Positions 11,376 through 55,201 of a stretch of DNA of 64,000 nt are shown here, in pieces (within the stretch, counting starts at the first letter, position 1; each line of letters starts with the position of its first letter). The notes beneath the pieces are model-generated. The model did not search any database and was not told where the DNA came from. It saw only the letters and a program-made list of their open reading frames with translations. Position numbers and translations under genes: made by a program. Origin of the DNA: Eubacterium sp. (GTDB taxonomy: Bacteria > Bacillota > Clostridia > Lachnospirales > Lachnospiraceae); contig JAFUBZ010000021.1 of NCBI GenBank assembly GCA_017459945.1, positions 1 to 64,000 of the forward strand, read 5' to 3'.

Positions 11376-11437
11376 ATTGCATCTCCTCTTCATGAACCAC
11401 GATTTGTTCTTTTGAACCATATCCATTGTATTACTTA

Positions 11438-28222: not shown

Positions 28223-29557
28223 TTAAATGACAGCGTCAACACCCACAGCAAACTCCTGATAGCGGTTTTTGATCTCATCCCCGCACCGCGCCGTGACAGC
28301 AATTCCTTCTGCCTGATAATCCACAGACAGTACTTCTGCGCTCTCCTGCAAACGATGCAGGATACTTCCCTGTGTGTAAGGAATGTGAAACTGACATTCC
28401 TGCATGTTTTCCCGCAGTTTTTTGCTGATCAGTTCCCAGAGCTGTCGGATTCCGATCCCGGTCCCGGCGCTCATGTAGATGCTGTCGTTTCTGACAGCCG
28501 GAATCTCATAGGGCAGATCATGCACAAGATCTGCTTTGTTAAATACACAGATCATCGGGATTCCGGCCGCGCCGATCTCACGCAGCGTCTCTTCCGTCAC
28601 TTTCATGCATGCACGATAATCAGAATCCGAGTAATCTATCACCTGAATCAGTAAATCTGCATATTTGACTTCTTCTAACGTGGAACGGAATGCCTTTACC
28701 AATGAAGTCGGCAATTCATCAATAAATCCAACCGTATCTGACAAAAGGATCGGCCGTTCCCCTTTTGGCTGGATCTTTCGCACCGTGGTGTCAAGCGTCG
28801 CGAACAGCTTATCCTGTTCGAGAACATTTTTTCCGTCTAATGGATTTTCGTTGATCGCCAGAAGCCTGTTCATGATCGTGGATTTCCCGGCATTGGTATA
28901 GCCCACGAGCGAAACTCTCGGGATTCCTGAACGCAGGCGTTTTTCTCTCTGTGTGGTGCGTTCCTTTGCGATCCCCTTTAATTCCTTTTCCAGTTCCGCC
29001 ATTCGCCGTTCGATATGGCGGCGGTCCAATTCAAGCTGTGTCTCACCGATACCGCGGTTTGACATACTGCCACTTGATCCCGCCTGTCTGCCAAGGTGTG
29101 TCCACATACCGGCAAGCCGCGGCATGATATACTGCAGCTGCGCATGTTCTACCTGCAGTCTTGCCTCTCTGGTCCTTGCCTGTTCCGCAAAGATCCTTAA
29201 GATCAGACCGGTCCGGTCCATTACTTCGACACCAAGCTCCTTATTCAGATTGCGAAACTGCATCGGCGAAAGTGTCTGATCAAAGATGACATACGCCGCT
29301 TCCAGCTCTTTTACGGCATGCGCCACTTCAGCTACCTTCCCGCTGCCGATGTAGGTTGCATGCACAGGGTTTTGCGCCCTTTGTGTAAACACTGCGATCG
29401 TATAGATATGGCATGCCTCTGCAAGCTGCTCCAGCTCTTCCATCATCCGTTCAAAGACATCATCCTTTTGATCCGTCTGAAGGCCGACCAGGATGGCGTT
29501 CTGCCAGATCTCTTCGTTTTGCGTTGTGCTGATATCTTCTGTGTTCATAGCATCCAT
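28223..29557 (-). CDS. hflX: GTPase HflX, ribosome-associated
   Basis: A 444-residue HflX GTPase. The N-terminal HflX domain ends in a helical stretch (ELDRRHIERRMAELEKEL), followed by the G domain: G1 GYTNAGKST, G3 DTVGF, G4 NKAD. HflX splits stalled ribosomes under stress. The gene stands alone with its own terminator; the start codon at 29557 has only a weak ribosome site, and the Met three codons later is an alternative. Confidence 0.93.
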   Translation of the reverse strand: MDAMNTEDISTTQNEEIWQNAILVGLQTDQKDDVFERMMEELEQLAEACHIYTIAVFTQRAQNPVHATYIGSGKVAEVAHAVKELEAAYVIFDQTLSPMQFRNLNKELGVEVMDRTGLILRIFAEQARTREARLQVEHAQLQYIMPRLAGMWTHLGRQAGSSGSMSNRGIGETQLELDRRHIERRMAELEKELKGIAKERTTQREKRLRSGIPRVSLVGYTNAGKSTIMNRLLAINENPLDGKNVLEQDKLFATLDTTVRKIQPKGERPILLSDTVGFIDELPTSLVKAFRSTLEEVKYADLLIQVIDYSDSDYRACMKVTEETLREIGAAGIPMICVFNKADLVHDLPYEIPAVRNDSIYMSAGTGIGIRQLWELISKKLRENMQECQFHIPYTQGSILHRLQESAEVLSVDYQAEGIAVTARCGDEIKNRYQEFAVGVDAVI

Positions 29558-29650
29558 TTTCTTTATTCAAATTCTTTGTGCTCCATTTGTCACTGACAGT
29601 ATACCATATTATATGACGATCTATGCCTGCAAATTCCCCCAAGACATGCA

Positions 29651-29682
29651 AAACCGCCGGAGATTTCTCCCCGGCGGTTTTT
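29651..29682. terminator. Terminator of the second transhydroxylase-type operon
   Basis: GC-rich stem AAACCGCCGG / CCGGCGGTTT with a short loop. It lies 24 bases past the stop of the small-subunit gene at 29707, with TTTT on the minus strand. Confidence 0.8.
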
Positions 29683-29706
29683 AAGATTATACTTATGTCA
29701 CAAGGA

Positions 29707-30522
29707 TCAGTCTACAAAGATTTCACCAATATTCTGGGATTCTTTGATGGTAACAGTCACATCGTCTGCGCCTGCTACAGAAATGGTATAGGTACCCGGA
29801 TCCAGCTTGTCGAACTTGAACTCGCCGAAGTAATCGGTGGTCTGTGTCTCATTCACGCCTTCACCTGTAAGTGTAACCTGTGCGCCTTCCTTGCAGTCAT
29901 CGGAAGCTTTGTCTACGATCGCGCCTGTGATGAAGTTCTTGGTGTAGCGATACAGATTCTTGTAGAATACGTGCGGGTTGGTGTTGTACTCCGGATGGAA
30001 TACTTCCAGGCCTTCTTCTTCTACGATCTTAGCCATCTCTTCCGGCTCGATATCGTAGTACTTCAGAGCCTCTGTCGGGCAGCTGTGTGCGCAACGCGGG
30101 ATATACGGCTCTACGCCGCTGTCGATGATGTGTGCACACATCGTACATTTCTGCGGTGCGTCAATCTCATCGTTCCAGTAAATGCCGCCATACGGGCACA
30201 TATCAAGGATCTCTCTATGGCCTTTTGCTTTTGCCTGATCGATCAGAACGATACCGTCTTCTCTGCGGGTTGCAAAACCGGCTTCTACCATTTTGCAGTT
30301 CTCGCAATGCTGGCACATTAATGCAAGATAACCAACATCGATACGCGGAGCCTGACCACGAACGGTACGAAGAAGTCTCACCCAACGATGACCGTGACGC
30401 GGCTGCGGAGCTGTATAAGGCTGCCAGTCATTTCCAACATGCTCATCTTTACAAGCCATAAAGCAGTTATTGCAGTCGAAGCAGAAAGCAAGATCATGAA
30501 CCAGATATTTTTGTTTACTCAT
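29707..30522 (-). CDS. Small (4Fe-4S) subunit of second transhydroxylase-like enzyme
   Basis: A 271-residue ferredoxin-type subunit paralogous to the one at 33663. Cysteine groups: CFDCNNCFMAC, CQHCENC, CPYGGIYW, CTMCAH and PRCAHSCP. The second group is CxxCxxC, whereas the partner at 33663 has CxxCx4C. Residues from about 195 form a transthyretin/Ig-like domain (GEFKFDKLDPGTYTISVAG), as known in pyrogallol transhydroxylase small subunits. It overlaps the large-subunit gene by eight bases. Confidence 0.85.
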   Translation of the reverse strand: MSKQKYLVHDLAFCFDCNNCFMACKDEHVGNDWQPYTAPQPRHGHRWVRLLRTVRGQAPRIDVGYLALMCQHCENCKMVEAGFATRREDGIVLIDQAKAKGHREILDMCPYGGIYWNDEIDAPQKCTMCAHIIDSGVEPYIPRCAHSCPTEALKYYDIEPEEMAKIVEEEGLEVFHPEYNTNPHVFYKNLYRYTKNFITGAIVDKASDDCKEGAQVTLTGEGVNETQTTDYFGEFKFDKLDPGTYTISVAGADDVTVTIKESQNIGEIFVD

Positions 30523-33319
30523 CTAACTTTCCTCCTTTCCAATCATGACCGGAGAACTTCCAAGCCTTCTCAGTCCAAACCATCTCTCTGCAGTTCGGAT
30601 CTTTGTAGAACTGGCCGGAAGCACGTGTAGCACCTACCGGTACATTAACCGGTGCATTCCAGGATTCTTTCTCCTCAGCGCCGCCGTGGTTCTTGTCGAG
30701 CGGTTTGAACTCGTAGCCTTCAAGCTCCTTGCGATCCCATTTCTCGATCTCAACCAGGCAATGCTCTGTTGCCATACCGGTCGCATATTTGGACAGGAAA
30801 CGTGCCGGGGTCAGGATGTTGATACATCCGCCGCGGTCTACTGCGTGACCCGGGTCACCCAGCGGTTTGTACTCTGCACAGGACTCATAGCAGTGGCAGG
30901 TACCCTGCGGTACACGCTCCGTTACCTGTGCTGCGAAGATAACAGCACCACGCTCATTGTAAGCCTTGATCAGATCATGATTCTTGATTCCACGCGGTTC
31001 TGCATCTTTCGGGTTCATACGGAGGATCCAGTACTTGAATCCATCCACTTCTACACGATGGTCCTCAATATCGTTAACAAACGAATCCTTACCATCACCC
31101 TGCGTATGGAATGAGAAACGCGGATGCGGTGAAAGAACTGCAAGCGGATATTTCTGGAACCGAGGTGTATGATGGCCTTCCCATGACGGGATGTACATCG
31201 GCATCAAAGGTCTCTCTTTATCGTCTGTGTCATAGTGACCGAAACGCTTCAGGGAGTTCGATACGAACTCAACCTTACCGGACTGTGTCTGCAGGCCCTT
31301 CATGTCAACCAGATCAGCCGGACGGAATCTGGAGATCCATCCTCTCGTATCCTGCGGACGATCCTCTGCGAACCAGCGGAGAGCCGGTGCAGCCGGTGCT
31401 CTGTCATCGTTCGGTACGATAAAGTAACCTTTTTCGAAGAATTTCTCCCATGTAACAACCTTCGGAAGATCAGATGCGTAGAACATCTGCTTCGCCCATC
31501 CGAGCTCAGTCTTGCCTTCTGAGAAGACATCACCGATGTTCAGGCGCTCACAGATCGCATTGAAGATCTCGTAGTCAGACATGGACTCGCCAAGCGGCTC
31601 GATGCACTTCTTCTGCAGTGTGATCACGCGGTGGTTTGCCTGGTTGTGAGAATCCGGGTTGTAACCGGAGTTGGATGCCCACTCACCGATATCCCAACGT
31701 TCAAAGTTTGTACAAGCCGGAAGAATGATGTCTGCAAACGGAACCTCTCCCTCGAACCAGATAGACTGGCTTACTACGAACGGAAGTCTCTTCGTGCGGT
31801 ACATTCTTGCATAACGGTCGCCCTGACCCATTGTTCCAATGTGCGGGCCGCCGTACTTGTACAGCAGCTGGCAGCGGGAGAAGCCCGGAGCCGGATACTC
31901 ATAATGGTGGAACTGCTGCTCCATGGAATCACCTACGAATCCACGGCCCCACCATTCTGTCTTGTCATTTAAGATACACTCCGGCAGACGCATACGGTTC
32001 ATATGAACACCTGCTGCCGTACTTAAGTGTGATACAAGCGGTCTGGAGTCAACGCCGTTGAACATACGATAAGCCAGAACAGCGCCTGCTGCGGAGTTCT
32101 GTGCATCACCGCCGATACCGCCATCAGCATAACCCGGGAAGTAGAAATCAGAATCTACCGGAACACCCTGTGTAGTGGAGTAGATATTGATACCCGGTTT
32201 ACCCATACCCTGCATTGTGATCAGTGCAACCATCATACGTGCCCAGTCCATACCGATCGGTGAACGGCAGCAGCCGCCCCATCCGCCAAGACCGCCGGCA
32301 GCAAGCATGGTTTTATGCTTTGCCCACTCACGAGCCAGTGCACGGATATCACGAGCCGGAATGTTACATTCGTTAGAAGCCCACTCTGTGGTCTTCGGAA
32401 TGCCGTCTGTTACACCAAGTACATACTTGGTCCACTCTTCAAATCCATAGGTATGTGTCTCTACATACTCTTTGTCATAAGTGCCTTCTGTCAGCCAGGT
32501 ATAAGCGATACCCAGTGCCAGAGCTGCATCTGTACCAAGCTGCGGAGAGAACCATTTGCCGCCCCACAGACCATTGGTGTGGTTGTAATACGGATCGATG
32601 AATACCATCTTTACGCCGAGCTCTTTGAGCCATCTACGACGGATCGTACTCTCGAATGCACCGTAAATACCGTTGTTGGTCTCCGGATCGGATGACCAGA
32701 ATACCATCATTTCACAGTTCTCAAGGCAGTCCTCTAACAGGTCTGTCTGCTCCGGGTTACCCAGGCGAGCTGAGAAGCCGTACATATGTGTAGCACCCCA
32801 GTGCCAGCCTTCCCAAGAATCCGGGTTATGATCTGCATAAGTCATACCAACAGCATTCATGAAACGGAACAATGTAGAATGACGATATCCTACGGTTCCC
32901 CAAAGATGATGTGAACTCGGCTCAATGATCATTGCGCCCGGTCCAAACTCTCTCTTGATCCGGCGGATCTCGTTGCAAACGATGTCCAGTGCCTCATCCC
33001 AGCTGATACGCTCATAACCGGAAATACCACGGTTTTCCTCGTTACGATTGCCGTTCGGGTCGAAATCCACACGCTTCATCGGATACAGATTTCTGCGGTC
33101 CGAATAGATCATGGATTTGAACTGTGCTGTTACAGGTGTGTAAGTTGTCTTACGCGGCGGAGTAAATGTTCTGCCTCGCGCTTCGATCGAGTATGATGCT
33201 GCATCATCCTCGTCCAGGTCCATCGGTGTGATTCGAACAATCTTGTCCTCCTCTTCGTCTACATACACGAAGACCGGTCCACCGGTGGTCATCTGGGTTT
33301 TTTTCACCAAATTACCCAT
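30515..33319 (-). CDS. Bis-MGD large subunit, paralogue of pyrogallol transhydroxylase
   Basis: A 934-residue DMSO-reductase-family subunit. It keeps the residues that surround molybdenum and substrate in pyrogallol transhydroxylase: His137-His138, Tyr145, Asp167-Ser168 (Ser is the molybdenum ligand), Trp347 and Tyr397. It differs from the neighbouring copy near the active-site tryptophan (GGWGGCCRSPIG against GGWGGACRATHG) and has an extra C-terminal tail of about 55 residues. There is no Tat signal. It may act on another polyhydroxybenzene or be a ring dehydroxylase; the substrate is not readable. ATG at 33319 with AAAGGAGG. Confidence 0.85.
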   Translation of the reverse strand: MGNLVKKTQMTTGGPVFVYVDEEEDKIVRITPMDLDEDDAASYSIEARGRTFTPPRKTTYTPVTAQFKSMIYSDRRNLYPMKRVDFDPNGNRNEENRGISGYERISWDEALDIVCNEIRRIKREFGPGAMIIEPSSHHLWGTVGYRHSTLFRFMNAVGMTYADHNPDSWEGWHWGATHMYGFSARLGNPEQTDLLEDCLENCEMMVFWSSDPETNNGIYGAFESTIRRRWLKELGVKMVFIDPYYNHTNGLWGGKWFSPQLGTDAALALGIAYTWLTEGTYDKEYVETHTYGFEEWTKYVLGVTDGIPKTTEWASNECNIPARDIRALAREWAKHKTMLAAGGLGGWGGCCRSPIGMDWARMMVALITMQGMGKPGINIYSTTQGVPVDSDFYFPGYADGGIGGDAQNSAAGAVLAYRMFNGVDSRPLVSHLSTAAGVHMNRMRLPECILNDKTEWWGRGFVGDSMEQQFHHYEYPAPGFSRCQLLYKYGGPHIGTMGQGDRYARMYRTKRLPFVVSQSIWFEGEVPFADIILPACTNFERWDIGEWASNSGYNPDSHNQANHRVITLQKKCIEPLGESMSDYEIFNAICERLNIGDVFSEGKTELGWAKQMFYASDLPKVVTWEKFFEKGYFIVPNDDRAPAAPALRWFAEDRPQDTRGWISRFRPADLVDMKGLQTQSGKVEFVSNSLKRFGHYDTDDKERPLMPMYIPSWEGHHTPRFQKYPLAVLSPHPRFSFHTQGDGKDSFVNDIEDHRVEVDGFKYWILRMNPKDAEPRGIKNHDLIKAYNERGAVIFAAQVTERVPQGTCHCYESCAEYKPLGDPGHAVDRGGCINILTPARFLSKYATGMATEHCLVEIEKWDRKELEGYEFKPLDKNHGGAEEKESWNAPVNVPVGATRASGQFYKDPNCREMVWTEKAWKFSGHDWKGGKLDE

Positions 33320-33662
33320 TCCTTCCTCCTTTCATTCAACCCCTGAAGTTTCTATCAAGATAATTTTACATACTCATTATATTACATCAAAAAAGCTTAT
33401 AATCCCCTATATGTCATCACATTCATCCGGTTTTGGAATAAGCGTATTTATCCTGGTATACCGGCCGAATTTATCCAGAAGACATTTTGGTACTATTGCT
33501 GTATTTTCACTGTTATAAACGAGAATAATTGTGCATTTTGTTAGTTGTGACTAATCATCTACAGATACATAGAGCTCCCACAGGAAATTCCCGCGGGAGC
33601 TCTGTCATAACTGTCGTCAACCTCAGAAAATCATCTGATTTGAAACAATCAGAACAGTCTGA
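33320..33662. other. Spacer between the two transhydroxylase-type operons
   Basis: No coding frame is convincing. It holds a strong hairpin ending the upstream operon (33571-33603), a TTAG-N6-CTAA dyad of doubtful meaning (33540-33555), a half-match to the LysR-type boxes (CCTGGTATAC, around 33453) and, on the minus strand, a TATAAT about 60 bases before the gene at 33319 with no good -35, as in an activator-dependent promoter. Confidence 0.5.
33571..33603 (-). terminator. Hairpin downstream of small subunit gene
   Basis: Nine-base perfect arms AGAGCTCCC (33571-33579) and GGGAGCTCT (33595-33603), extended by a partly paired inner stem. There is no clear T-run, so termination may be partial and allow read-through into the second pair. 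Confidence 0.6.
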
Positions 33663-34496
33663 TTATTTGTCCATATCCAGATAATCCAGGTTCAGTGACT
33701 TGCCGGCAATCTCGATATCGAAGGATTTTGTGAATCCGCCTGCCTCGATGTTGATGGTGTATTTGCCATCATCCAGCTTGTCAAATCTGTAATCGCCAAA
33801 GAAGTTGGTTTCCTGGCTAGCAATAACCTTGCCGTCCTGAACCAGATCAACTTTACCGCCTTCGAAGCAGTCGCCGCCGATCAGGATGCCGCCCCATGCA
33901 AAGTTCTTTGTGAACATGCCGAGGTTCTTATAGAATACGTGCGGGTTTGTGCCATATTCCGGATGGAATACTTCCAGTCCTTCTTCTTCGATGATCTTCT
34001 GCATCTCTTCCGGCTCTACATGATATGCCTTCAGGCACTCTGTCGGGCAGTTGTGTACGCAACGCGGAAGACCTGGTGTCCAGTCCGGATCATCCAGCAG
34101 ATGAGCACACATTGTACATTTCTGCGGTACATCCAGCTCTTCGTTGTAATAAATTGTTCCGTACGGGCAGGAATCTACCAGATCTCTTCTGCCTTTTGCC
34201 TTCTCCGGATCGATCATAACGATACCGTCTTCTCTACGATATACTGCGCCATTGCCGGCTGCTTCACAAGCAGCATTCTCGCAATGCTGGCAGGTTAATG
34301 TCAGGAAACGATAGTCATTACGTGCATAACGTCCACGCTCTCTTCTGAGAACGTTTACCCAACGATGTCCATGACGCGGCTGTTCTCCGGTATATCCCGG
34401 CCAGTCGTTGCCTACGTGCTCATCCTTGCAGCCCATGAAGCAGTTATTACAGTCATGGCACCATCTGACATCCATTGTTAAATACCACTGTTTCAT
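33663..34496 (-). CDS. bthL: Pyrogallol-phloroglucinol transhydroxylase small subunit
   Basis: About 277 residues, close to the 275 of the Pelobacter acidigallici subunit. Ferredoxin-like ligands: CHDCNNCFMGC, CQHCENAAC, CPYGTIYY, CTMCAH and CVHNCPTEC, enough for three [4Fe-4S] clusters. The last 80 residues form the Ig/transthyretin-like domain (FFGDYRFDKLDDGKYTINIEAG) seen in that enzyme. ATG at 34496 follows AAAGGAG; the 34514 start has none. It lies 39 bases after the large-subunit gene. Confidence 0.88.
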   Translation of the reverse strand: MKQWYLTMDVRWCHDCNNCFMGCKDEHVGNDWPGYTGEQPRHGHRWVNVLRRERGRYARNDYRFLTLTCQHCENAACEAAGNGAVYRREDGIVMIDPEKAKGRRDLVDSCPYGTIYYNEELDVPQKCTMCAHLLDDPDWTPGLPRCVHNCPTECLKAYHVEPEEMQKIIEEEGLEVFHPEYGTNPHVFYKNLGMFTKNFAWGGILIGGDCFEGGKVDLVQDGKVIASQETNFFGDYRFDKLDDGKYTINIEAGGFTKSFDIEIAGKSLNLDYLDMDK

Positions 34497-34535
34497 TACA
34501 TTATCTCCTTTCACTCTGTACGTACGAGACGCTTT

Positions 34536-37136
34536 TTAGTAGATCTCGTAGATACCGCCGTCCCACTTCTCAACTTCGATCTGCGCGCTGTTCGGTGCCA
34601 TACCACAAGCGTACTTGGACATGTAGCGGTCCGGTGTAAGGATATTTACACAACCGCCGCGGTCAGCGGAGTGACCCGGTTTACCAAGCGGTGCGTACTC
34701 TGCGCAGGACTCATAAGAATGTACAGTACCAGGCTGTACACGCTCACCAACCTGAGCACACAGGATGACAGAACCTCTGTCGTTGTAAGCACGTACCAGA
34801 TCGCCATCTTTGATTCCACGAGCTTCAGCATCGACAGTGTTCATACGGATGATCCAGTAGTACCATCCATCAACCAGAACACGGTGATCCTTGATGTCAA
34901 GCATGAAGGAGTCTTTTGCATCACCCATGGTGTGGAATGAGAATCTCGGATGCGGTGAAAGCATTCCAAGCGGGTATTTCTTAGCTACTTCAGCATGCCA
35001 GCTTTCCCAAGCCGGTACATATTTGTGCATTGCCGGACGATACTCGTCTACGAAGCCCTGTGCTTCGAAACGGGACAGAGAAGTGGAGATAAACTCGATC
35101 TTTCCTGTCGTGGTCTGCAGACCCTTCAGGCCGACTGTCTGGTTCGGAGCCGGACCCCAGTCCGGTGTATCGCGTACGCGGTTCTCTGCGAACCAGCGGA
35201 ATGCTGTCTTCGGAACACCTTCCGGATTGTACGGTACAACCAGATATCCCTTCTTGCAGAAGTCTTCGAAGCTCATCAGAGTCGGGCAGTCTGTTGCGTT
35301 GTAGTACTGCTCGATCCATGCCATCTCGTCTTTGCCTTCTGTAAAGATATCATAGATACCGAATTTCTTTGACAGATATGCGTAGATATCGTAGTCAGAC
35401 TTGGACTCGCCAAGCGGCTCGATACATTTCTGCTGGAAGGAAATTACACGGAAGTTGGTCTGTGCGAAGTTGTCCGGAATATAACCGGAGCAGTTACCAA
35501 ACTCGGAGATATCCCATCTCTCATAGTTTGTACAAGCCGGAATGATAACGTCAGCGAACATAACCTCGCCTTCATTCCAGATTGACTGTGACAGAACGAA
35601 TTCCAGTGTCTCGGAATGGTACATCTTAGCGTAACGGTTTGTAGCGGTCATGGTACCGATGTGCGGTCCGCCGTACTTCCAGTACATCTTGATGCTGCCA
35701 TAACCCGGAGCCGGATACTGATACGGATGCATCTGTGCTTCGATCGTAGCACCGCAGAAGCCCTTGCCATACCATTCGAACTTGCCGTTCATCAGGCACT
35801 CCGGAATCTTCAGACGCGGAATATGCTGTCCAGCTTCCCAGTTCATCTTAACCGGAGCCGGGAATGTGGTCTTACCATCGAACATTCTCCATGCAAACTT
35901 GAAGCCTGCAGCTGAGTTAGAGCAGTCACCAGAGATACCGCCGTCTGCATAACCCGGGAAGAAGAAGTTGTGGTCAGTCGGAACACCCTGTGTGGTGGAG
36001 TACATGTTTGAACCCGGTTTTCCAAGGCCCTGCATGGTTGCAAGAGCGATCATACCACGAGTCCACTCAATACCATGGGTTGCACGGCAAGCACCACCCC
36101 AGCCGCCAAGACCGCCGGCTGCCAGCTGTGTTTTTCTCTTAGCCCATTCACGTGCCAGTGCGCGGATCTCGCAAGCCGGAACTCCGGACTCAGCTTCTGC
36201 CCACTCACAGGTCTTCGGAATGCCGTCCTCGCCATTACCAAGAACGTACTCAGCCCACTCTTCGAATCCGTATGCATGATCTGCAACGTACTCTTTATCA
36301 TAGGTTCCTTCTGTCAGCCATGTATAAGCGATCGCGAAGGAAATAGCGTGGTCTGTACCAACTTTCGGTGAGAACCACTTCATACCCCACATATTTGCGG
36401 AATGGTTGTAGAACGGATCGATGAATACCATCTTGATACCCAGCTCATCCATCCAGCGACGACGGATATGGGACTCGAAGCCACCATAGATACCGTTGTT
36501 AACTTCCGGATCGGATGACCAGAATACGATCAGTTCGGAATTCTGCATACAGTCTTCTAACAGGTTGTACTGCTCCGGATTACCAAGTCTCCAGGAGAAG
36601 CCCCACATATGCATAGCGCCCCAGTGCCAGCCTTCCCATGAATCCGGGTTGTGATCCGCATAGGTGAATCCCATCAGGTTCATGAAACGGAAATATGTGG
36701 AATGACGGTAACCTACGTTACCCCACAGATGGTGAGATGACGGTGTGGACATGATACCACCAGGTCCAACCTCTCTCTTGATTCTGTTAACTTCGCTAAC
36801 GATGATGTCCGCAGCCTCTTCCCAGCTGATTCTCTCATAACCGGAAATACCACGGTTCTGGATGTTTCTCTCTCCGTTCGGATCGAAGTCTACACGCTTC
36901 ATCGGGTAAAGCAGACGACGGTCTGAATATACCATGGATTTCTGACCAGCGGTATACATCTGGATCGTAGTCTTTCTCGGCGGTGTAAATGTCCTGCCGT
37001 GTGCTTCGATTGTCCAGCCTTCCGGATCTGTCTCGTCAAGGTCCATCGGTGTTAAACGAACGATTTTGCCGTCCTTAACATAAACGAACACCGGACCGCC
37101 GGTACTGGAGTTTGTCAAACGAATTTCGCCTTTCAT
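34536..37136 (-). CDS. athL: Pyrogallol-phloroglucinol transhydroxylase large subunit
   Basis: An 866-residue bis-MGD enzyme that converts pyrogallol to phloroglucinol, using a tetrahydroxybenzene as co-substrate. Length and sequence fit the Pelobacter enzyme (about 875) throughout, including the C-terminus EKWDGGIYEIY. Active-site positions map with a shift of eight or nine: His135, Tyr143, Asp165, Ser166 (molybdenum ligand), Trp346, Tyr396. No Tat signal, so cytoplasmic. ATG at 37136 follows AAGGAGG. Immediately upstream are two kinds of operator and the LysR gene. Confidence 0.9.
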   Translation of the reverse strand: MKGEIRLTNSSTGGPVFVYVKDGKIVRLTPMDLDETDPEGWTIEAHGRTFTPPRKTTIQMYTAGQKSMVYSDRRLLYPMKRVDFDPNGERNIQNRGISGYERISWEEAADIIVSEVNRIKREVGPGGIMSTPSSHHLWGNVGYRHSTYFRFMNLMGFTYADHNPDSWEGWHWGAMHMWGFSWRLGNPEQYNLLEDCMQNSELIVFWSSDPEVNNGIYGGFESHIRRRWMDELGIKMVFIDPFYNHSANMWGMKWFSPKVGTDHAISFAIAYTWLTEGTYDKEYVADHAYGFEEWAEYVLGNGEDGIPKTCEWAEAESGVPACEIRALAREWAKRKTQLAAGGLGGWGGACRATHGIEWTRGMIALATMQGLGKPGSNMYSTTQGVPTDHNFFFPGYADGGISGDCSNSAAGFKFAWRMFDGKTTFPAPVKMNWEAGQHIPRLKIPECLMNGKFEWYGKGFCGATIEAQMHPYQYPAPGYGSIKMYWKYGGPHIGTMTATNRYAKMYHSETLEFVLSQSIWNEGEVMFADVIIPACTNYERWDISEFGNCSGYIPDNFAQTNFRVISFQQKCIEPLGESKSDYDIYAYLSKKFGIYDIFTEGKDEMAWIEQYYNATDCPTLMSFEDFCKKGYLVVPYNPEGVPKTAFRWFAENRVRDTPDWGPAPNQTVGLKGLQTTTGKIEFISTSLSRFEAQGFVDEYRPAMHKYVPAWESWHAEVAKKYPLGMLSPHPRFSFHTMGDAKDSFMLDIKDHRVLVDGWYYWIIRMNTVDAEARGIKDGDLVRAYNDRGSVILCAQVGERVQPGTVHSYESCAEYAPLGKPGHSADRGGCVNILTPDRYMSKYACGMAPNSAQIEVEKWDGGIYEIY

Positions 37137-37285
37137 ATGGCATAACCTCCTTTTTGTTTCCTCATTCACTGTCTCGTATTTTCATAATCCGTGCTGTCAA
37201 AATCGAGTAGAGGATGTGTTTCAACGGTACAGATTATAAAAAAACAACCACAAAGAAAATGGCATACATTTCCTTTATGGTTGTG

Positions 37286-37316
37286 ATTATACGGTGTATT
37301 CTAAAAATACATGCAA
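37286..37316 (-). promoter_or_regulatory. MerR-type promoter of the athL-bthL operon
   Basis: On the minus strand TTGCAT (37311-37316) and TATAAT (37286-37291) are 19 bases apart. The long spacer contains the dyad TGTATT-N5-AATACA (37295-37311), centred two bases toward the -35. The second MerR gene has the same dyad with the same offset in its own promoter. Confidence 0.6.
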
Positions 37317-37370
37317 GGATTTTTTTCGTTTTTGTATGATTTTTCCGTGCTTTCGTCTAAAAGCACAAAT

Positions 37371-37385
37371 GTATAGCGACTATAC
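37371..37385. promoter_or_regulatory. LysR-type T-N11-A box upstream of athL
   Basis: A perfect dyad GTATA-GCGAC-TATAC, between the end of the LysR gene and the athL promoter, roughly 100 bases above the predicted start site. Related dyads occur at 38623, 53437, 55202 and 55281. Confidence 0.6.
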
Positions 37386-37406
37386 TTTATGAAAAATACA
37401 CAATAT

Positions 37407-38324
37407 CTAGAAGTCTCGTTTCACATGCAGGCTGGAGTATTTCTTAGCGAAAACAAACAGGTCTTCCAACAACGGCGAATCGTTCCTCGCCTTTCTGGTC
37501 AGCTGCATCGGCAAATACTTATGCGGCACATCCTCCTCGATGGGAATAAAACGCAGATTGCTGTTCGATGTCACCTCCGCCTCTTCAAAGATCAGCGATA
37601 CGCCTTCGCCCATTTCCATCCGGAACATGTACTCATCAAACTCTTCGATATGCGCTACGATCTTTGGCACAAAGCCAAACGCATCACAGATCTGGATCAG
37701 ATAATCATCCTCCGGCGCGATCTCCATCGGACGGTAGGAAAGGAACGGACTGTCCTTAAAATCCGCCAGTGTCACATGCTTTTTAAAAAAGAACGGATTC
37801 TTTTTATGGATGACAATGCCGACACGTGAATAGAATAAGGTAAGCTTGTCAACATTTTTTACCATCTTGACGTCATGGTCCGCGATCAGGATCGCATCAT
37901 AATAATCATCATGAAGCCCTTTGACGAGCTGCTGCTGCGAGCAGCGCTCCTTGATCAACTGGATCTCCGGTCTTGTCTCATGAAACTCAAACAAAAGCCG
38001 TGCAAGATAACTGTTCGCTTTAATATGTTCCTGGCAGCCAAGCGTGATCCGTCCGGCATACTTTTGTACTGAATTCCGCGCCTGGATCATCGTCTGCTCC
38101 CACTGCGGCAGAAGCTCCTCAAGCTTTTCCACAAGCATTGCGCCCTGACGCGTCAGCTTTACGCCCTTTGTATTCCGGTCAAACAAGGCCATCCCCCACT
38201 CTTCTTCTAAAGAAGCGATCTGACGGCTGATGTTCGATTGCGAAATGAATAATCCTCTGGCGGCTTTTGTAAAACTTAAGCTATGCGCCACCTCCATAAA
38301 ACATTTGATCTGCAGGTCAGTCAT
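37407..38324 (-). CDS. LysR-family regulator
   Basis: A 305-residue LysR protein: winged helix at residues 1-60 (SFTKAARGLFISQSNISRQIASLEEEWG), linker helix, then a LysR substrate-binding domain with RITLGCQEHIKAN and DAILIADHDVK. LysR proteins usually sense a small aromatic or acid ligand and activate nearby genes. It is transcribed toward athL and away from the SSS symporter, with T-N11-A dyads on both sides, so both are likely targets. Confidence 0.92.
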   Translation of the reverse strand: MTDLQIKCFMEVAHSLSFTKAARGLFISQSNISRQIASLEEEWGMALFDRNTKGVKLTRQGAMLVEKLEELLPQWEQTMIQARNSVQKYAGRITLGCQEHIKANSYLARLLFEFHETRPEIQLIKERCSQQQLVKGLHDDYYDAILIADHDVKMVKNVDKLTLFYSRVGIVIHKKNPFFFKKHVTLADFKDSPFLSYRPMEIAPEDDYLIQICDAFGFVPKIVAHIEEFDEYMFRMEMGEGVSLIFEEAEVTSNSNLRFIPIEEDVPHKYLPMQLTRKARNDSPLLEDLFVFAKKYSSLHVKRDF

Positions 38325-38707
38325 TATACCTTTTCCTCCTGATCATAAAACATAGACTAGTAACATAATATCGGCCTAAATACCACCCTATTATATAAGG
38401 AAATGCTTCGTCGTGCAAACACATTCTTCCCATGCCAAAACCAGTAATCCAAATCCACGTTTTATTTATGCAAAAACTGGATAACAGGCTTTTTTTTAGT
38501 TTATCGGATTAAAGAATTCCCGTCAACCCTTGAATTTTCGGGCTTTTTCGCCATTCTGAATTCATTTGGTATTCTAAACTCCAGTTTATAGGCAGTTTAT
38601 TCTTTTTTTATTTTTTGTTGACTTATACCTAGTATAAAGTTTAAAATTTTTTCTTGAGTAGAGGAACTAATTTTTCATGTAGAAAAAGAGGTTAAGGAGG
38701 TTATTGA
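38325..38707. other. Divergent control region between lysR and the symporter gene
   Basis: No gene is seen. Besides the box at 38623-38637 it contains GTATTCTAAA (38570-38579), identical to one half of the MerR-type dyad in the athL promoter, and AT-rich runs near 38490 and 38600. The symporter ribosome site AAGGAGG lies just before its ATG. Confidence 0.5.
38618..38639 (+). promoter_or_regulatory. LysR-type box and -10 of the symporter gene
   Basis: TTGACT (38618-38623) is followed by TTATA-CCTAG-TATAA (38623-38637), a T-N11-A dyad. Its second arm supplies a -10-like TATAAA at 38633-38638. There is no good -35 at 17 bases, which fits activation. The lpdC promoter region has almost the same layout. 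Confidence 0.55.
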
Positions 38708-40264
38708 ATGGCTCTGTTAATTGCTATTGCGTACTTTGCTGTGTTGATCATCATCGCATCATTGTACTCAAGAAAACGTGTTAAGTCTGCGGAAGACTTT
38801 GCTAACGCAGGCGGCGGACTGGGATGGTTAATGGTTACCTTCTCATTCGTACTTGCTCCTCTTGGTTCCGGACATACAATGTCCCAGTGGGAAAAAGCTG
38901 CAGGTGCCGGCGGTTGGGAAAACTTAGCTGACGCTGTATCCGGCGGTCTCTACAATGGTATCGGTGCAGGTGCCATGTGGTGGGCAATCGGTGCAGGCGC
39001 TATCTTCCTTCCGATCGCTATGCTGTGGATCGGCCCGATGTACAAAAAGATCGGTGCTCCGACCGCTCCCCGTGCGATCGCTAAGATCTTTGGCAAGAAG
39101 CTTGGATATTTCCATGCTGCTTTCCAGACCCTGACCTGGACAGGTATCGGCGCTTCCGAGCTGGTTGCTACCGGTGCTGCAATCTGGACACTGTGTAACG
39201 CTTCCGGTATCCCGCTTACCATTTATCAGGCAATCGTTATCGGTTTCGTTCTGACAGCCTGCTATGTATTGTTCGGTGGTATGCTTCAGATGGCATGGCT
39301 GAACTGTGTAAATGCTGTCGTTATGATCGGTTGCTCCTATGCATGTGTTGGAATTCTCGGCGTTCACTATCTGTCACAGTTTGGCGGATGGGGCGCTGTA
39401 TTCGAGACATATGACATGGCAGGACTTGGCTCCTTCATGTCACAGCCGGGCACTCTGACACTGCCGCCTGTATGGCTTGGTGTTATCATCCCGGTTATCG
39501 TACTTCACCTCTCTGCAGGTGCAGTATCCCAGACCATGATGCAGCCGTTCTTCGCTGCAAAAGACCAGAGTGCATGCCGTAAGGGTGTATTCCTTGGCTG
39601 TGGTATCAACATCATGTCATCCCTGCCGTGGATCTTCATCGCGATCGCTGCAATGACGATTCCGAAGATTGCTGCACAGGTTGGACCGAACGGTCTGGAA
39701 GCTGTTCCGCTTCTGGCACAGGAAGGTCTGCCGGTACCGGCAATCGGTTTCCTGATGGTTGCTCTTCTGGCAGCTACACTGTCAACAGGCGGCGGTGTTG
39801 TTATGGCGAACTCCAACGTTCTTGCTAACGACATCATCATCGGCTGCTGCATGCCTGACGCTGATGACAAGAAGAAAATGCGCATCAACCGTATCTGTGT
39901 TATCATCGCAGCTCTCCTGCTTCTGCCGGGCGCTCTGATCATGGCACACGAATTCGTATTCAACCTGTTCCTGTGGGTATTCTCCTTCGGTATGCCGGTA
40001 TTCGTAGTTCTCGTAATCGGCTACAACTTCAAGGTCAGCCGCACAGCTGCATGGCTTACGATCATCATCACATACATCGTAGACTGCATCTGGACATTCG
40101 TACCGATGCCGCTTCCGGGTGTATGGAGCATGAACCTGTACATGACCATGGTTGTATCTGTTGTTCTTGGTATCATTCTGCATCTGATCATTCCGGGCAA
40201 ACCTGCATGGAAGAAACGTCACGCAGAAGAGATCGAGAGAAACTCGCAGCCTGCTGTAGATTAA
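38708..40264 (+). CDS. Sodium:solute symporter (SSS family)
   Basis: A 518-residue membrane protein with about 13 helices. GGGLGWLMVTFSFVLAPLGSGH, TWTGIGASELVATGAA and LLAATLSTGGGVVMANSNVLA resemble the sodium-site helices of the SSS family. ATG at 38708 follows AAGGAGG. Context (lysR, transhydroxylase) suggests import of an aromatic acid or export of a product; the sequence does not give the substrate. Two tiny membrane genes follow in the same unit. Confidence 0.88.
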   Translation: MALLIAIAYFAVLIIIASLYSRKRVKSAEDFANAGGGLGWLMVTFSFVLAPLGSGHTMSQWEKAAGAGGWENLADAVSGGLYNGIGAGAMWWAIGAGAIFLPIAMLWIGPMYKKIGAPTAPRAIAKIFGKKLGYFHAAFQTLTWTGIGASELVATGAAIWTLCNASGIPLTIYQAIVIGFVLTACYVLFGGMLQMAWLNCVNAVVMIGCSYACVGILGVHYLSQFGGWGAVFETYDMAGLGSFMSQPGTLTLPPVWLGVIIPVIVLHLSAGAVSQTMMQPFFAAKDQSACRKGVFLGCGINIMSSLPWIFIAIAAMTIPKIAAQVGPNGLEAVPLLAQEGLPVPAIGFLMVALLAATLSTGGGVVMANSNVLANDIIIGCCMPDADDKKKMRINRICVIIAALLLLPGALIMAHEFVFNLFLWVFSFGMPVFVVLVIGYNFKVSRTAAWLTIIITYIVDCIWTFVPMPLPGVWSMNLYMTMVVSVVLGIILHLIIPGKPAWKKRHAEEIERNSQPAVD

Positions 40265-40281
40265 TATAAGGAGGTTATACT

Positions 40282-40386
40282 ATGTGGGTAATTCAGGATT
40301 GTGCAATCCAATTTGTAATGGGTATTGTCCTCTGTGCGATCTTCTTTGGAATCTGGAAGGCTACGCACAAAGGTGAAAAACTGTAA
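40282..40386 (+). CDS. 34-residue single-helix membrane protein (symporter accessory type)
   Basis: ATG at 40282 with AAGGAGG eight bases upstream. The product, 34 residues, has WVIQDCAIQF followed by one transmembrane helix (about 11-25) and a basic tail KATHKGEKL. It lies 17 bases after the symporter stop. Small single-helix accessory proteins encoded next to SSS symporters are known in clostridia, and the N-terminal W-I-Q-D pattern fits them. Too short for most gene finders. Confidence 0.75.
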   Translation: MWVIQDCAIQFVMGIVLCAIFFGIWKATHKGEKL

Positions 40387-40398
40387 GGAGGTTTCTAT

Positions 40399-40509
40399 AT
40401 GGCTATTACAATCGTATCAGCTTATCTTCTTGCCGTTGGAATTATTCTTTTCATCATCTGCCTTACAGGCGCAAAAAAGAATAATATTCCGGATGAGTTA
40501 GATGATTAA
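40399..40509 (+). CDS. 36-residue single-helix membrane protein
   Basis: ATG at 40399 with AAGGAGG seven bases upstream, 12 bases after the previous stop. The 36-residue product has one hydrophobic helix (residues 3-24, ending FIICLTG) and a charged tail ending PDELDD. The strong ribosome site and tight spacing argue that it is translated. It is unlike the preceding small protein in sequence; a second subunit or regulator of the symporter is plausible. Confidence 0.72.
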   Translation: MAITIVSAYLLAVGIILFIICLTGAKKNNIPDELDD

Positions 40510-40556
40510 AAATTATAGTTGAGATTGAGCTTTAACAAATACTCTACTACGAATAA

Positions 40557-40588
40557 GAGCCCTGTCGCGAATGCGGCGGGGCTTTTTC
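40557..40588 (+). terminator. Terminator of the symporter operon
   Basis: AGCCC...GGGCT stem with inner CGC/GCG pairs, followed by TTTTTC. It closes the symporter and two small genes into one transcript. Confidence 0.85.
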
Positions 40589-40628
40589 GTGCGAGGATAG
40601 AAGGCAGCATGTTTATCCTTCAATCAAA

Positions 40629-40657
40629 AGAAGCGGAGAGCTCCGCTCTCCGCTTCC
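40629..40657 (-). terminator. Terminator after moaA
   Basis: GCGGAGAG (40633-40640) and CTCTCCGC (40646-40653) form an eight-base stem; the minus strand continues TTCTTTTG. It lies 21 bases beyond the moaA stop and ends the molybdopterin operon. Confidence 0.8.
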
Positions 40658-40677
40658 ATTCATTTATTATATATTCA

Positions 40678-41691
40678 TCATCCGCCGATCGATACCATCT
40701 TATGCTCTTCCGATATCTCCGCAAGTTCTTCAAAGCAGTGTTCTTTCGGCTTTTTCCAGATGGCCAGCTCCATCACTTCTCTCACACGGTCCAGATCGCC
40801 GTTTCGAAGCGGCTCCCTGATATCATAAGTCGTCGCATAGCACAGACACGGTTTTACCCTTCCGGTCGCCGTCAGGCGCACCCTGTTGCATGCATCACAG
40901 AACTTCCCATGCAGTGCCTCGATCACACCGATCGAGCCCTGAAAGCCCGGAATCTTATAATAATGCGCCGGTCCGTTCCCGTGGATCGCATAATCTTCTT
41001 CGAGTCCCGGGAACCGATGTTTCATTTCGTTTAACAGCACTTCTGCTGAAAAATACTCATACTGCTGTCCCTCACCGATCGGCATCAGCTCGATAAACCG
41101 AAGATCGACCGGATGATGCTTTGCAAGCGAAAGCATGCTGTACCAGTTCGGATCTCTGAACGGAACAACCTGCGCATCCGCTTTAGAAGGAGCAGCAAAA
41201 AAGCTGTCTGCGAGCAGTACTGCATTAACCTTAACAGACAATCCGGCATCAAGCGAATGCTGGATTCCGGAAAGCACCTTCTCAAGCTCATCCCTGCCCG
41301 TTGTTCTGGCATACGCCTCCCGGTCTAATGTATCCAGACTGATGTTAAGGCCGTCCAGACCGGCATCAACCAACGCATCCAATTGTCTGTCCAGCAATAC
41401 ACCGTTTGTCGTCAGATTAATCTTTTGAATCTGCGGAATCGCCCGAATCATTTTCACAAGCTTTGGCAGTTCCAGGCGCACCAGTGGTTCTCCGCCTGTC
41501 AGTCGGATCTTGGTGATCCCAAGATCTGCCGCCATCCTGCAGACTTCCACGATTTCCTCATACGTCAACATATCTGTCATCGGCAGATTGTCGATCCCGC
41601 CTTCCGGCATACAGTACCTACAGCGCAGATTGCAACGATCCGTTACCGAAATCCGCATATAATCAATTTTTCTTCCAAACTGATCCTGCAT
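40678..41691 (-). CDS. moaA: GTP 3',8-cyclase MoaA
   Basis: A radical SAM enzyme, first step of molybdopterin synthesis (GTP to 3',8-cyclo-GTP). The N-terminal cluster is CNLRCRYC (residues 18-25); the C-terminal cluster is CDACNRVRL with a later CLC; the protein ends in the required Gly-Gly (SIGG). An extra stretch of about 15 residues precedes the HPVDLRFIELMPIGEG block. Last gene of the operon moga-to-moaA on the minus strand. Confidence 0.95.
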   Translation of the reverse strand: MQDQFGRKIDYMRISVTDRCNLRCRYCMPEGGIDNLPMTDMLTYEEIVEVCRMAADLGITKIRLTGGEPLVRLELPKLVKMIRAIPQIQKINLTTNGVLLDRQLDALVDAGLDGLNISLDTLDREAYARTTGRDELEKVLSGIQHSLDAGLSVKVNAVLLADSFFAAPSKADAQVVPFRDPNWYSMLSLAKHHPVDLRFIELMPIGEGQQYEYFSAEVLLNEMKHRFPGLEEDYAIHGNGPAHYYKIPGFQGSIGVIEALHGKFCDACNRVRLTATGRVKPCLCYATTYDIREPLRNGDLDRVREVMELAIWKKPKEHCFEELAEISEEHKMVSIGG

Positions 41692-41715
41692 ATTCGTCAA
41701 AACCCCTATTTTCTC

Positions 41716-42918
41716 TTACAGATAATATACCTTTACAGTATCTCCCACTTTGACAGGCTGTCCTGTCTGCGGCATCTCCACCAAACAGTTGCACTCTGCC
41801 AGCGCATGCAGCACGCCAACGGACTTTTCCGCTCCGCACAGGGAAACCTTCCCATCTGCCGCCTGTCCTCTTAAGAATCTCCTGCCGCCTGTTTTCTTAT
41901 ATTCATTCTGGATAAGCATATCCTCTGTCTGCATCTTCCAGCAGATCTGCCCGGTCAGCTTATAAAGCATACCGCGGATCAAAATCTCATAATTTGCGAT
42001 CGCGCCAAACGGATTGCCGGAAAGGCAAATGACCGGAACGCCATGATAAGAATATGCCATCGTCGGAGAGCCCGGCTTGATCCGCACGCGCCAAAACAGT
42101 CGTTCTGCGCCCAGAATATCACCGATATCATGCATGATGTCCTTTTCTCCGACCGATACACCACCTGTCGTGATCACAAGATCACAACCGGCTTCAACGG
42201 CCTTGCGGATCTCTTCCGCCACGCTTTCTGCTTTGTCTTTGGCATGAACAGAAACAAACGGCGCCGTTCCACATTCCATCAGACGTGCACCAATATACGC
42301 CCGGTTTGAATCAAAAATCTTTCCGGGCTTCCAGTCCATCCCCGGTGCAAGCACTTCATCTCCGCTCGTGATGATTCCGACACGCGCTTTCCGAAGAACC
42401 TCTACGCGGTCTTTGCCCAGAGAAGAAATCACCGAAACCGCCCCGGCATTGATCTGCGTCCCTGCAGGGATCAGCACTTCACCTGCTTTATAATCCTCTC
42501 CCTGATAGCAATAGTTCTGGTACGGTGCGATTGAAGTGTAAAGCGCCACCACTTCTTCTCCTTCATCCGTGTCTTCCTGACGGATCACGCAGTTTGCACC
42601 ATCCGGGATCGGTGCGCCTGTCATCAGCTTGACAGCTTCTCCCAGTCCTACAACGCCTTCGAACACATCTCCGGCATAGATTTTCCCAAGCACCTTTAAT
42701 TTCACAGGCGCATCCTTTGTCGCTCCGGAACTGTCCTCGCCGTGGAATGCATACCCATCGAGCGGCGAACGCGGAAACGGAGGCTGGTCTCTTAAAGCGA
42801 CCAGATCCTCTGCCAGAACACGGCCGACAGAATCCATCAGCAACACTGTCTCAGTTTCCGTAATCGGTTTTATCTGTGCATTTAACAGCTCCTGTGCTTC
42901 TTCAATTTCGAGTGCCAT
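41716..42918 (-). CDS. moeA: Molybdopterin molybdenumtransferase MoeA
   Basis: A 400-residue MoeA: LDGYAFHGED near residue 55, molybdopterin-binding domain with GIITSGDEVLAPG and TTGGVSVGEKDIM, and a C-terminal beta domain. It inserts molybdate into adenylylated molybdopterin. One base separates it from moaC. Confidence 0.94.
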   Translation of the reverse strand: MALEIEEAQELLNAQIKPITETETVLLMDSVGRVLAEDLVALRDQPPFPRSPLDGYAFHGEDSSGATKDAPVKLKVLGKIYAGDVFEGVVGLGEAVKLMTGAPIPDGANCVIRQEDTDEGEEVVALYTSIAPYQNYCYQGEDYKAGEVLIPAGTQINAGAVSVISSLGKDRVEVLRKARVGIITSGDEVLAPGMDWKPGKIFDSNRAYIGARLMECGTAPFVSVHAKDKAESVAEEIRKAVEAGCDLVITTGGVSVGEKDIMHDIGDILGAERLFWRVRIKPGSPTMAYSYHGVPVICLSGNPFGAIANYEILIRGMLYKLTGQICWKMQTEDMLIQNEYKKTGGRRFLRGQAADGKVSLCGAEKSVGVLHALAECNCLVEMPQTGQPVKVGDTVKVYYL

Positions 42919-42919
42919 A

Positions 42920-43396
42920 TTATTCTCCTCGCTTGTAGTGTCCTGATTTTCCGCCGTCTTTTTCCAAAAGCTTGATGTCGAGGATCACCATGCCCCGATC
43001 TACAGCCTTACACATATCATAAATGGTCAAAAGTGCTGCAGATACCGCATTTAACGCCTCCATCTCGATACCGGTCTTTCCGGTCGTCTTAACCGTAGCG
43101 ATCGCTTCGATCTCTGATACTTCCGGATAGAGCTCAAACTGGATATCAACTCCCGTCAGAAGCAGCGGATGACACATCGGGATCGTCTCCCAGGTTTTCT
43201 TTGCAGCCATAATGCCGCCGACCTGTGCCACCGCCAGAACATCACCTTTTTTGATCTTTTGTGCCGTAATCAGCTCAAATGTCTCAGGCTGCATCTGAAT
43301 CCGCCCGGATGCGATACCGATCCGCTCCGTATCCGCCTTCTGCGAAACATCTACCATCTTCGCGCGTCCCTGGTCATTGATGTGCGTCAATTCCAT
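42920..43396 (-). CDS. moaC: Cyclic pyranopterin monophosphate synthase MoaC
   Basis: About 158 residues with the MoaC core: [10 protein letters not shown] with the conserved His, [24 protein letters not shown] with the active-site Asp/Lys, and [12 protein letters not shown] at the C-terminus. It converts cyclo-GTP to cPMP. ATG at 43396 follows GGGAGG and overlaps the stop of the upstream gene (TAATG). Confidence 0.95.
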
Positions 43397-43743
43397 TAAT
43401 ACAGCACCTCCCAATCCATCGGGAAACGTTCCATCCCAACCAGCATTCCGTCACTGATCTTCGTGTGTCCGTCCGGAATGGTATACCCCATCTTATTCAG
43501 ATCGTCTTCGATCATACGGATCATTTTATGATTGGTCGGAATGACTTTATAGGTCTCCGGTGGAAGTACACCGTGACGGTCTGTATCACTGTAAAAAGCG
43601 ATATTTACCGAATTCGGCTCCATAAAGATTCTGTAGTACCCGATCAGCTGATCTTCATACATCACTTCAAACCGTGTTACGACAAATACCGCGTAGCGGT
43701 CCATTGCCTCCCAATGTACTTTTACAGGTTTTAACTCTGCCAT
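43396..43743 (-). CDS. Uncharacterised protein in the molybdopterin operon
   Basis: A 115-residue soluble protein I do not recognise. It has mixed alpha/beta sequence with aromatic-rich strands ([21 protein letters not shown]) and ends WEVLY. ATG at 43743 follows AGGGGA. It is translationally coupled to moaC and preceded by the second molybdopterin-binding gene, so a role in cofactor synthesis or insertion is likely by position only. Confidence 0.7.
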
Positions 43744-43803
43744 TTTTCTATCCCCTTTTTTAAAGCTTCTTTCCAAGCGAATCCACGTCCCGGAGACGCA
43801 GTT

Positions 43804-44832
43804 TTACTTTCCAAACCCGCATTTCGGGAAGGTGCAAACTTCACAGTTTAAGCAAAGGCCGCCCTCTCCGAGGTCTGCGATATCCTCTGCAGTGATCTCA
43901 TCATCCGCCATAACACGCGGTAAAACGAGGTCAAAAATCGTTCTTGCTGCATACATGACACATCCCGGCAGGCCAAGGATCGGTACCGTTCTGTCTCCTG
44001 CATCATAATAGGAAACCAGCATCATCGCACCGGGCAGTACCGGTGCGCCGTATGTTACGATCCTTGCACCCGTATCCCGGATCGCTCCCGGTGTACAGTC
44101 ATCCGGATCTACGCTCATACCGCCGGTGCAGATCACCAGCTCTGCGCCGTTTTTGATCTGTTCCAGGATTGCTTCTGTGATATGCGCTTTTTCATCATCC
44201 ACATACGTCTGTCCCAGAACTTCGGACGGGTATTCTGCTACTTTTGCTTTGATCACAGGACCGAATGTATCTTTGATCCGTCCTTTGAACACCTCGCTTC
44301 CGGTCGTTACAATCCCAACCTTTTTCTTCTGAAACGGAAGCACAGAAAAGATCGGTTCTGTTCCGCCAGCCTGTCTGGCTGCCTCCATCTTTTCCTTCTC
44401 GATCACGAGCGGAATGATACGTGTGCCTGCCAGTTTATCTCCTTTTTTCACCGGGAAATTACCATGGATGGATGCGATCATCATCTCTCCAAGACTGTTT
44501 ACCGCCAGCAGGTTTTCTCGGCGGATCTTCAGCAGACCGTCAATGTCTGCGATCAGCTCAATCTTGCCCTCTTTTACATCCGATCCATGCATGTTATCAC
44601 CTGCACAGATCTCGTATAAAACCTGTGCTGCTTCGTCTTCGTGAAGCATATTATCATCTTTTTCCCATACATAAAGATGCTCTTTCCCGACAGAAAGCAG
44701 CACCGGAATGTCTTCCTCTCTTACGACATGCCCTTTCCTGAAAACGGCATCCTTTGTCACACCTTTGATAATCTGTGTAATGTCGTGACACAAAACGTGT
44801 CCGACAGCATCCTCTGTTCGAATCAGCTGCAT
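43804..44832 (-). CDS. MoCF-domain molybdopterin-binding protein
   Basis: A 342-residue protein. The N-terminal part resembles MoeA domains; residues about 170-300 hold a MoCF/MogA-like fold (KKVGIVTTGSEVFKGRIKDTF and ELVICTGGMSVDPDD). It ends with a cysteine group (CLNCEVCTFPKC) that may bind a metal. Members of this family occur in clostridia beside MoeA; proposed roles include a second cofactor insertion or tungsten handling, not settled. Confidence 0.85.
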   Translation of the reverse strand: MQLIRTEDAVGHVLCHDITQIIKGVTKDAVFRKGHVVREEDIPVLLSVGKEHLYVWEKDDNMLHEDEAAQVLYEICAGDNMHGSDVKEGKIELIADIDGLLKIRRENLLAVNSLGEMMIASIHGNFPVKKGDKLAGTRIIPLVIEKEKMEAARQAGGTEPIFSVLPFQKKKVGIVTTGSEVFKGRIKDTFGPVIKAKVAEYPSEVLGQTYVDDEKAHITEAILEQIKNGAELVICTGGMSVDPDDCTPGAIRDTGARIVTYGAPVLPGAMMLVSYYDAGDRTVPILGLPGCVMYAARTIFDLVLPRVMADDEITAEDIADLGEGGLCLNCEVCTFPKCGFGK

Positions 44833-44892
44833 AAGAAATCTACCCCTCTTTCCCGCTTATTACGCGGTTCTTCTATGATCTCTAAATCATGA

Positions 44893-55196: not shown

Positions 55197-55201
55197 GCTT
55201 T

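Follow-up and report, generated by a model that had tools for sequence, protein, structure and literature searches.

The window analysed here is a stretch of 64,000 nucleotides from Eubacterium sp. (Lachnospiraceae; contig JAFUBZ010000021.1, assembly GCA_017459945.1). It is part of a 165 kb contig in a metagenome-assembled genome (MAG) that is 64% complete, and its nearest named genomes are the Lachnospiraceae MAGs RUG14228 and SIG275. Two gene pairs resembling the subunits of pyrogallol-phloroglucinol transhydroxylase, here called A and B, lie in tandem on the minus strand in the order B large, B small, A large and A small. The A pair is the subject of this analysis.

29707–30522, minus strand: A-type small subunit, 271 amino acids, with 4Fe-4S clusters and a C-terminal beta domain (CarboxypepD_reg-like), from the open reading frame (ORF), homology and Pfam
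30515–33319, minus strand: A-type large subunit, transhydroxylase-like with molybdenum-bis-molybdopterin guanine dinucleotide (Mo-bisMGD), 934 amino acids, from the ORF, homology, Pfam, alignment and a model
33663–34514, minus strand: B-type small subunit, from the ORF and Pfam
34536–37169, minus strand: B-type large subunit, 877 amino acids, within the clade of the crystallised enzyme at 74% identity, from the tree and alignment

The two A reading frames share 8 bases, and the pair spans 29707–33319 as the sequence-only reading, an earlier note on this DNA, had placed it. The best sequence match of A large is the transhydroxylase of Pelobacter acidigallici (PDB 4v4c, 4v4d and 4v4e), which aligns over residues 1–867 with 1289 bits (4v4c_A), and the AhtL-like first domain PF21423 is found at 92.5 bits against a Pfam cut-off of 27. 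The match to acetylene hydratase is only 48 bits, so the closest kinship to that enzyme that marks the catechol dehydroxylases is not seen in A. An AlphaFold2 model of A large, built from a 50-row alignment (predicted local distance difference test score 83.6), superposes on 4v4c_A with Z 50.4 and a root-mean-square deviation of 1.5 over 864 residues, compared with Z of about 35 for the dimethyl sulfoxide (DMSO) reductases and Z 23 for acetylene hydratase. A small is homologous to the Pelobacter small subunit and has the 4Fe-4S cysteines and C-terminal beta domain that the family requires. By modelled fold and by sequence, the A pair is a member of the pyrogallol transhydroxylase family (PgtL/AthL-like). 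The pair is not a chance occurrence, since A large is conserved at 96–99% in two sister genomes and its ratio of nonsynonymous to synonymous substitution within the window genus is 0.02–0.07, as under purifying selection.

The residues Ser168, Asp167, His138, Tyr145, Trp347 and Tyr397, which the sequence-only reading had listed as kept, are indeed all present. They correspond to Ser175, Asp174, His145, Tyr152, Trp354 and Tyr404 of the Pelobacter enzyme, and A His137 corresponds to His144. An alignment of 98 sequences shows no variation at any of the seven positions within A, B or the sister clade described below. Ser168 aligns with the molybdenum ligand Ser175. Tyr560 (Pelobacter numbering, used from here on unless A is named) is also conserved, completing the family set of Ser, Asp, His144, Tyr152, Trp354, Tyr404 and Tyr560. 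With its molybdenum ligand intact and no change at the aligned catalytic residues, A appears to have kept hydroxyl-transfer chemistry.

A genome scan yielded 80 family loci, and a tree of 98 rows was made by the quick posterior mean site frequency method, with support from the Shimodaira-Hasegawa-like approximate likelihood ratio test (SH-aLRT) only. The A clade comprises 24 rows, all Bacillota, and is separate from the 20 rows of the clade of B and the Pelobacter enzyme (SH-aLRT 100 for both). Its members are Lachnospiraceae MAGs, Eubacterium oxidoreducens DSM 3217, Parasporobacterium paucivorans DSM 15970, CTSoil_080, and Oscillospiraceae and Family XIII MAGs. Its closest relative in the tree is a sister clade of 8 rows (termite-gut Clostridia L057, L070 and others; also G159), found in genomes that hold A. 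The two form one group apart from the B/Pelobacter clade, again with SH-aLRT 100. A position inside the pyrogallol transhydroxylase clade, which the sequence-only reading had named as part of what would overturn it, was tested on the 98-row tree and A falls outside. A is about 64% identical to the Pelobacter enzyme and 63% identical to B. In the same tandem of the sister genome G001 (L017), silent divergence from the window is 0.40 for A large and 0.14 for B large, which points to different recent histories of the two genes. The family has a further branch, of about 1000–1040 amino acids with a long extension at the N-terminus, located beside heterodisulfide-reductase-like genes (L011:2804-5806, L015:10957-14079, L045:4941-8051).

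Of the 852 columns compared, no more than six distinguish A from the other 66 non-distant rows: K466R, C557N, I561N, V641I, P666R and S816C. The changes of Cys557 and Ile561 to Asn are present in 24 out of 24 A-clade proteins, where A Asn550, Tyr553 and Asn554 align with Cys557, Tyr560 and Ile561. They lie either side of the conserved Tyr560, in a segment that the alignment shows to be inserted relative to DMSO reductase. Cys557 is found in all 20 B-clade members, both residues are retained in the sister clade, and almost all remaining family members retain them as well. Cys557 and Tyr560 are residues that we take to be near the substrate in the published transhydroxylase structure. Further contrasts between A and B are Y199T, F420A, T505G and F554W, of which the changes at 199 and 420 also distinguish A from the Pelobacter enzyme. 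The sequence-only reading had drawn attention to altered residues beside Trp347. This holds for A Ser353, Met357 and Asp358, which are fixed or nearly so in the A clade (22–24 of 24). Cys350, directly after W-G-G in A, is not a clade mark, being Cys in 14 of 24 A-clade proteins, Ala in 7 and Val in 3.

A C-terminal tail, first put at about 55 residues, does exist. It extends A by about 62–67 residues beyond the C-termini of B and the Pelobacter enzyme, and is conserved in the complete A proteins of Lachnospiraceae and Eubacterium but absent from Parasporobacterium, CTSoil_080 and the termite members. In the small subunit, the second cysteine group of A is CxxCxxC, as had been noted against CxxCx4C in its partner, with one cysteine displaced by two positions and most cluster cysteines retained. 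The motif is real but not diagnostic: it is present in five B-type small subunits, while most A-type small subunits lack it, and it was discarded as a mark of A. In some Lachnospiraceae the A and B small subunits alike carry a block CExCPLVDAGxAxRRED, with the Cys shifted by two and two residues lost, in place of the usual CENAPC... (window:29707-30522, L033, L035, L049, L061, L062, L065 and L066). Its presence in both subfamilies suggests exchange between paralogues or repeated change. Around alignment codons 180–230, A small and B small of the window (29707–30522 and 33663–34514) share 80–87% DNA identity, above most of the rest of the genes, a pattern like that of gene conversion.

Although A and B are tandem neighbours of the same architecture, they differ in their surroundings. 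B adjoins a LysR gene and a symporter gene, whereas the region upstream of A is separate, with a preceding hairpin and a GntR-type palindrome. The features that bear on the control of A are as follows.

33571–33603, minus strand: strong hairpin between B small and A large (dG -28.6, z -6.7), conserved in sister genomes; putative terminator or processing element
33454–33463, no strand: putative GntR-type operator TGGTATACCA with one mismatch, located some 140 bp before the start of A, from a motif search
10068–10781, minus strand: GntR-family regulator (GntR and FCD domains), candidate reader of TGGTATACCA, from domain match and context
11439–11448, no strand: TGGTATACCA-like site with 1 mismatch, upstream of a flavin mononucleotide (FMN) reductase gene adjoining the GntR gene
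7158–7167, no strand: perfect TGGTATACCA preceding the substrate-binding gene of a ribose-type ABC transporter

Upstream of A the palindrome is perfect in G001, in E. oxidoreducens and in two related MAGs of Eubacterium. Of 18 B starts, not one has it, even when one mismatch is allowed. Stretches of 300 bp drawn at random from the window contain it with at most one mismatch in 3.5% of cases. In G001 the only perfect copy of the genome is the one upstream of A. E. oxidoreducens has three, preceding A, a catechol-dehydroxylase-like molybdoenzyme gene and a crotonase-like gene. Perfect copies are not enriched genome-wide, being fewer than those of the reversed control, and the information lies solely in where they are placed. 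Scanned for promoters, the region upstream of A scored no more hits than shuffled sequence did. G023 has a near-perfect copy in the interval that separates a further transhydroxylase-like gene from a divergently oriented GntR gene. From this placement, including the site next to the GntR gene in G023, we infer that a GntR-FCD regulator reads the palindrome. The ribose-type ABC transporter, the FMN reductase, a 225-amino-acid protein without a Pfam match and the GntR gene (window:5814-6956, 9236-11525) accompany B loci in several genomes, and the transporter and FMN reductase genes of the window carry the same palindrome as A.

The catechol-dehydroxylase-like molybdoenzyme resembles both catechol dehydroxylase and acetylene hydratase, has an N-terminal Fe4S4 domain, and occurs in 8 relatives of the window organism (L203-L210, e.g. 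L208:1501-4230 and L201:9688-12426; also G002:C315:1818-4481). Its best PDB match is acetylene hydratase, and in two genomes it adjoins UbiD. All 8 of these genomes have a perfect TGGTATACCA near the start of the gene, and the flanking sequence differs between them. Neither the window MAG nor G001, which is 98% complete, was found to contain the gene.

The remaining features around the two pairs are listed below. A search of positions 29000–46000 against Rfam found nothing.

37371–37385, no strand: palindrome GTATAG-N3-CTATAC upstream of B; possible LysR site
37407–38324, minus strand: LysR regulator, probably of the B locus judging by its position, from Pfam and neighbourhood
38708–40264, plus strand: sodium:solute symporter, divergent, accompanying B loci in relatives, from Pfam and neighbourhood
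40678–45411, minus strand: molybdenum cofactor genes moaA, moeA, moaC, moeA-like and mogA, from sequence resemblance; recurring near A and B loci
54565–56842, plus strand: UbiX-like flavoprotein and UbiD-type decarboxylase, a probable gallate decarboxylase, from homology

Beyond A small, the neighbours of A recur only in subsets of genomes (a TetR or LysR gene, cofactor genes, UbiD), and are therefore a weak guide to its substrate. Genes resembling a membrane-bound hydrogenase or Hyf-type complex come after the A pair, in the same orientation, in Parasporobacterium paucivorans (L038:6495-12882).

Elsewhere in the genomes, the genes of a route from gallate accompany A. UbiD homologues are present in 17 of the 18 A-bearing genomes tested; UbiD adjoins A in CTSoil_080 and is near it in Gx481_bin34. 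A BKACE gene (PF05853, triacetate lyase family) is found in 14 of 14 genomes tested, compared with 1 of 14 controls. The published phloroglucinol cluster consists of a reductase, a dehydrogenase, a cyclase-family hydrolase and a lyase (PMC10470551). By resemblance and gene order, a four-gene cluster of this type surrounds BKACE in G001, E. oxidoreducens, P. paucivorans, G145 and G159, and on the same grounds the dehydrogenase, cyclase-family hydrolase and lyase lie at a contig start in the window genome. In the window MAG the triacetate-lyase-type gene (L157, G000:C53) and a second UbiD (G000:C39:9227-10699) each have one in-frame TAG that is absent from G001, possibly through assembly error or decay. 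The window organism, a gut bacterium, is probably able to degrade plant tannins.

The sequence-only reading had taken A to be a functional paralogue with another substrate, and its separate clade, the all-or-none changes around Tyr560, purifying selection and its own putative operator uphold this. We give a probability of roughly 0.55 to A having a distinct role in hydroxyl transfer on polyhydroxybenzenes beside a Cys-type enzyme. As a molybdenum-bisMGD enzyme with an iron-sulfur small subunit, this Asn-type protein would move or add a ring hydroxyl on a polyhydroxybenzene, working next to the Cys-type enzyme (here B, which is most likely the pyrogallol-to-phloroglucinol transhydroxylase) in the route from gallate to phloroglucinol while being independently regulated. 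That A separated long ago, has fixed substitutions, evolves under purifying selection and is controlled separately speaks for a substrate or role different from that of B. The usual Cys-type partner, UbiD and the phloroglucinol cluster argue for a role in the same route. The most likely task would be an accessory step around 1,2,3,5-tetrahydroxybenzene, the cosubstrate of B-type enzymes, in making or recycling it, or the entry of a hydroxyhydroquinone-like isomer into the phloroglucinol route. The fuller proposal that A makes or recycles 1,2,3,5-tetrahydroxybenzene within a GntR regulon that also holds the catechol-dehydroxylase-like molybdoenzyme is tentative and of low probability.

Several observations weigh against a distinct role. 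The MAGs G154 and G160 show A alone with no second copy, and there A might itself convert pyrogallol unless the bins are incomplete. Conversely, B occurs without A (the single family copy of G165 is of B type, and G023 has B and the long type), so A is not needed everywhere for pyrogallol conversion, which weakens a universal role in making the cosubstrate. Not every A gene is preceded by the palindrome: Parasporobacterium, termite members and several Lachnospiraceae lack it there, and the Lachnospiraceae in question have a TetR gene divergent from A instead. Position 557 is presumed to be a substrate-pocket residue in the structure described in 2004, and no activity data for any A-clade member were found.

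A plain isozyme, water-dependent hydroxylation and dehydroxylation all rank below the distinct hydroxyl-transfer role. As an isozyme, A would be a second pyrogallol-phloroglucinol transhydroxylase carrying out the reaction of B, for dosage or for other conditions of expression. This would be in keeping with the conservation of every residue listed in the sequence-only reading, the 63–64% identity to the Pelobacter enzyme, the two MAGs without a second copy, and a control site of its own as expected under other induction. It is nevertheless improbable, given an A clade that is old and fully separated, in which Cys557Asn and Ile561Asn are fixed and absent from almost all other members. Furthermore, a Cys-type companion of the B or sister clade is present in 20 of the 24 A-bearing genomes (14 with a B-clade copy and 6 with a sister-clade copy; two others, G155 and G164, have copies not fully classified, and two have A only).

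Slightly less probable again is a hydroxylase, with the hydroxyl coming from water and electrons passing via the small subunit, for example from pyrogallol to 1,2,3,5-tetrahydroxybenzene to prime B. The known transhydroxylase requires that compound as cosubstrate (PMC13039779) and A small retains most cluster cysteines. Resorcinol hydroxylase (RhL) of Azoarcus anaerobius, thought to act in this way, has been placed with PgtL in one group of Ser-ligated enzymes (PMC10100899). Genomes with only B, and the lack of a dedicated electron partner conserved beside A in the neighbourhood comparison, speak against it. That A reductively dehydroxylates the ring of catechols or of phenols derived from flavonoids, a ring dehydroxylase having also been raised in the sequence-only reading, is very unlikely: the putative operator shared with the catechol-dehydroxylase-like gene in relatives is in its favour, but that co-regulated gene would be the better dehydroxylase candidate, A has no conserved neighbour that could serve as a membrane or quinone partner, and it lies in the transhydroxylase branch of the molybdenum superfamily, away from the branch where catechol dehydroxylases are closest to acetylene hydratase and distant from pyrogallol hydroxytransferase (PMC7028382). 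The sequence matches and the model, which is nearer even to DMSO reductases than to acetylene hydratase, agree on this placement. A ring dehydroxylase of the known kind is thus not supported, but A may conceivably dehydroxylate by transhydroxylase-type chemistry.

Anaerobic breakdown of tannins and gallate passes through pyrogallol and phloroglucinol. Studies of E. oxidoreducens mutants (by Haddock and Ferry in 1993) and of Pelobacter massiliensis (by Brune et al. in 1992) are said to point to further steps around tetrahydroxybenzenes. We know of no gene for such steps or for the origin of the tetrahydroxybenzene cosubstrate, and A is a candidate for one of them. Annotations of 'pyrogallol hydroxytransferase' span at least two clades. 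A stands for the second of these subfamilies, which is old and in most cases found alongside the first, as it is in two cultured organisms, Eubacterium oxidoreducens and Parasporobacterium paucivorans. Its named genes, fixed residues and candidate operator offer handles on the question of where the cosubstrate comes from. If A does make or recycle 1,2,3,5-tetrahydroxybenzene, it would fill the missing step that primes the anaerobic fermentation of gallate and tannins.

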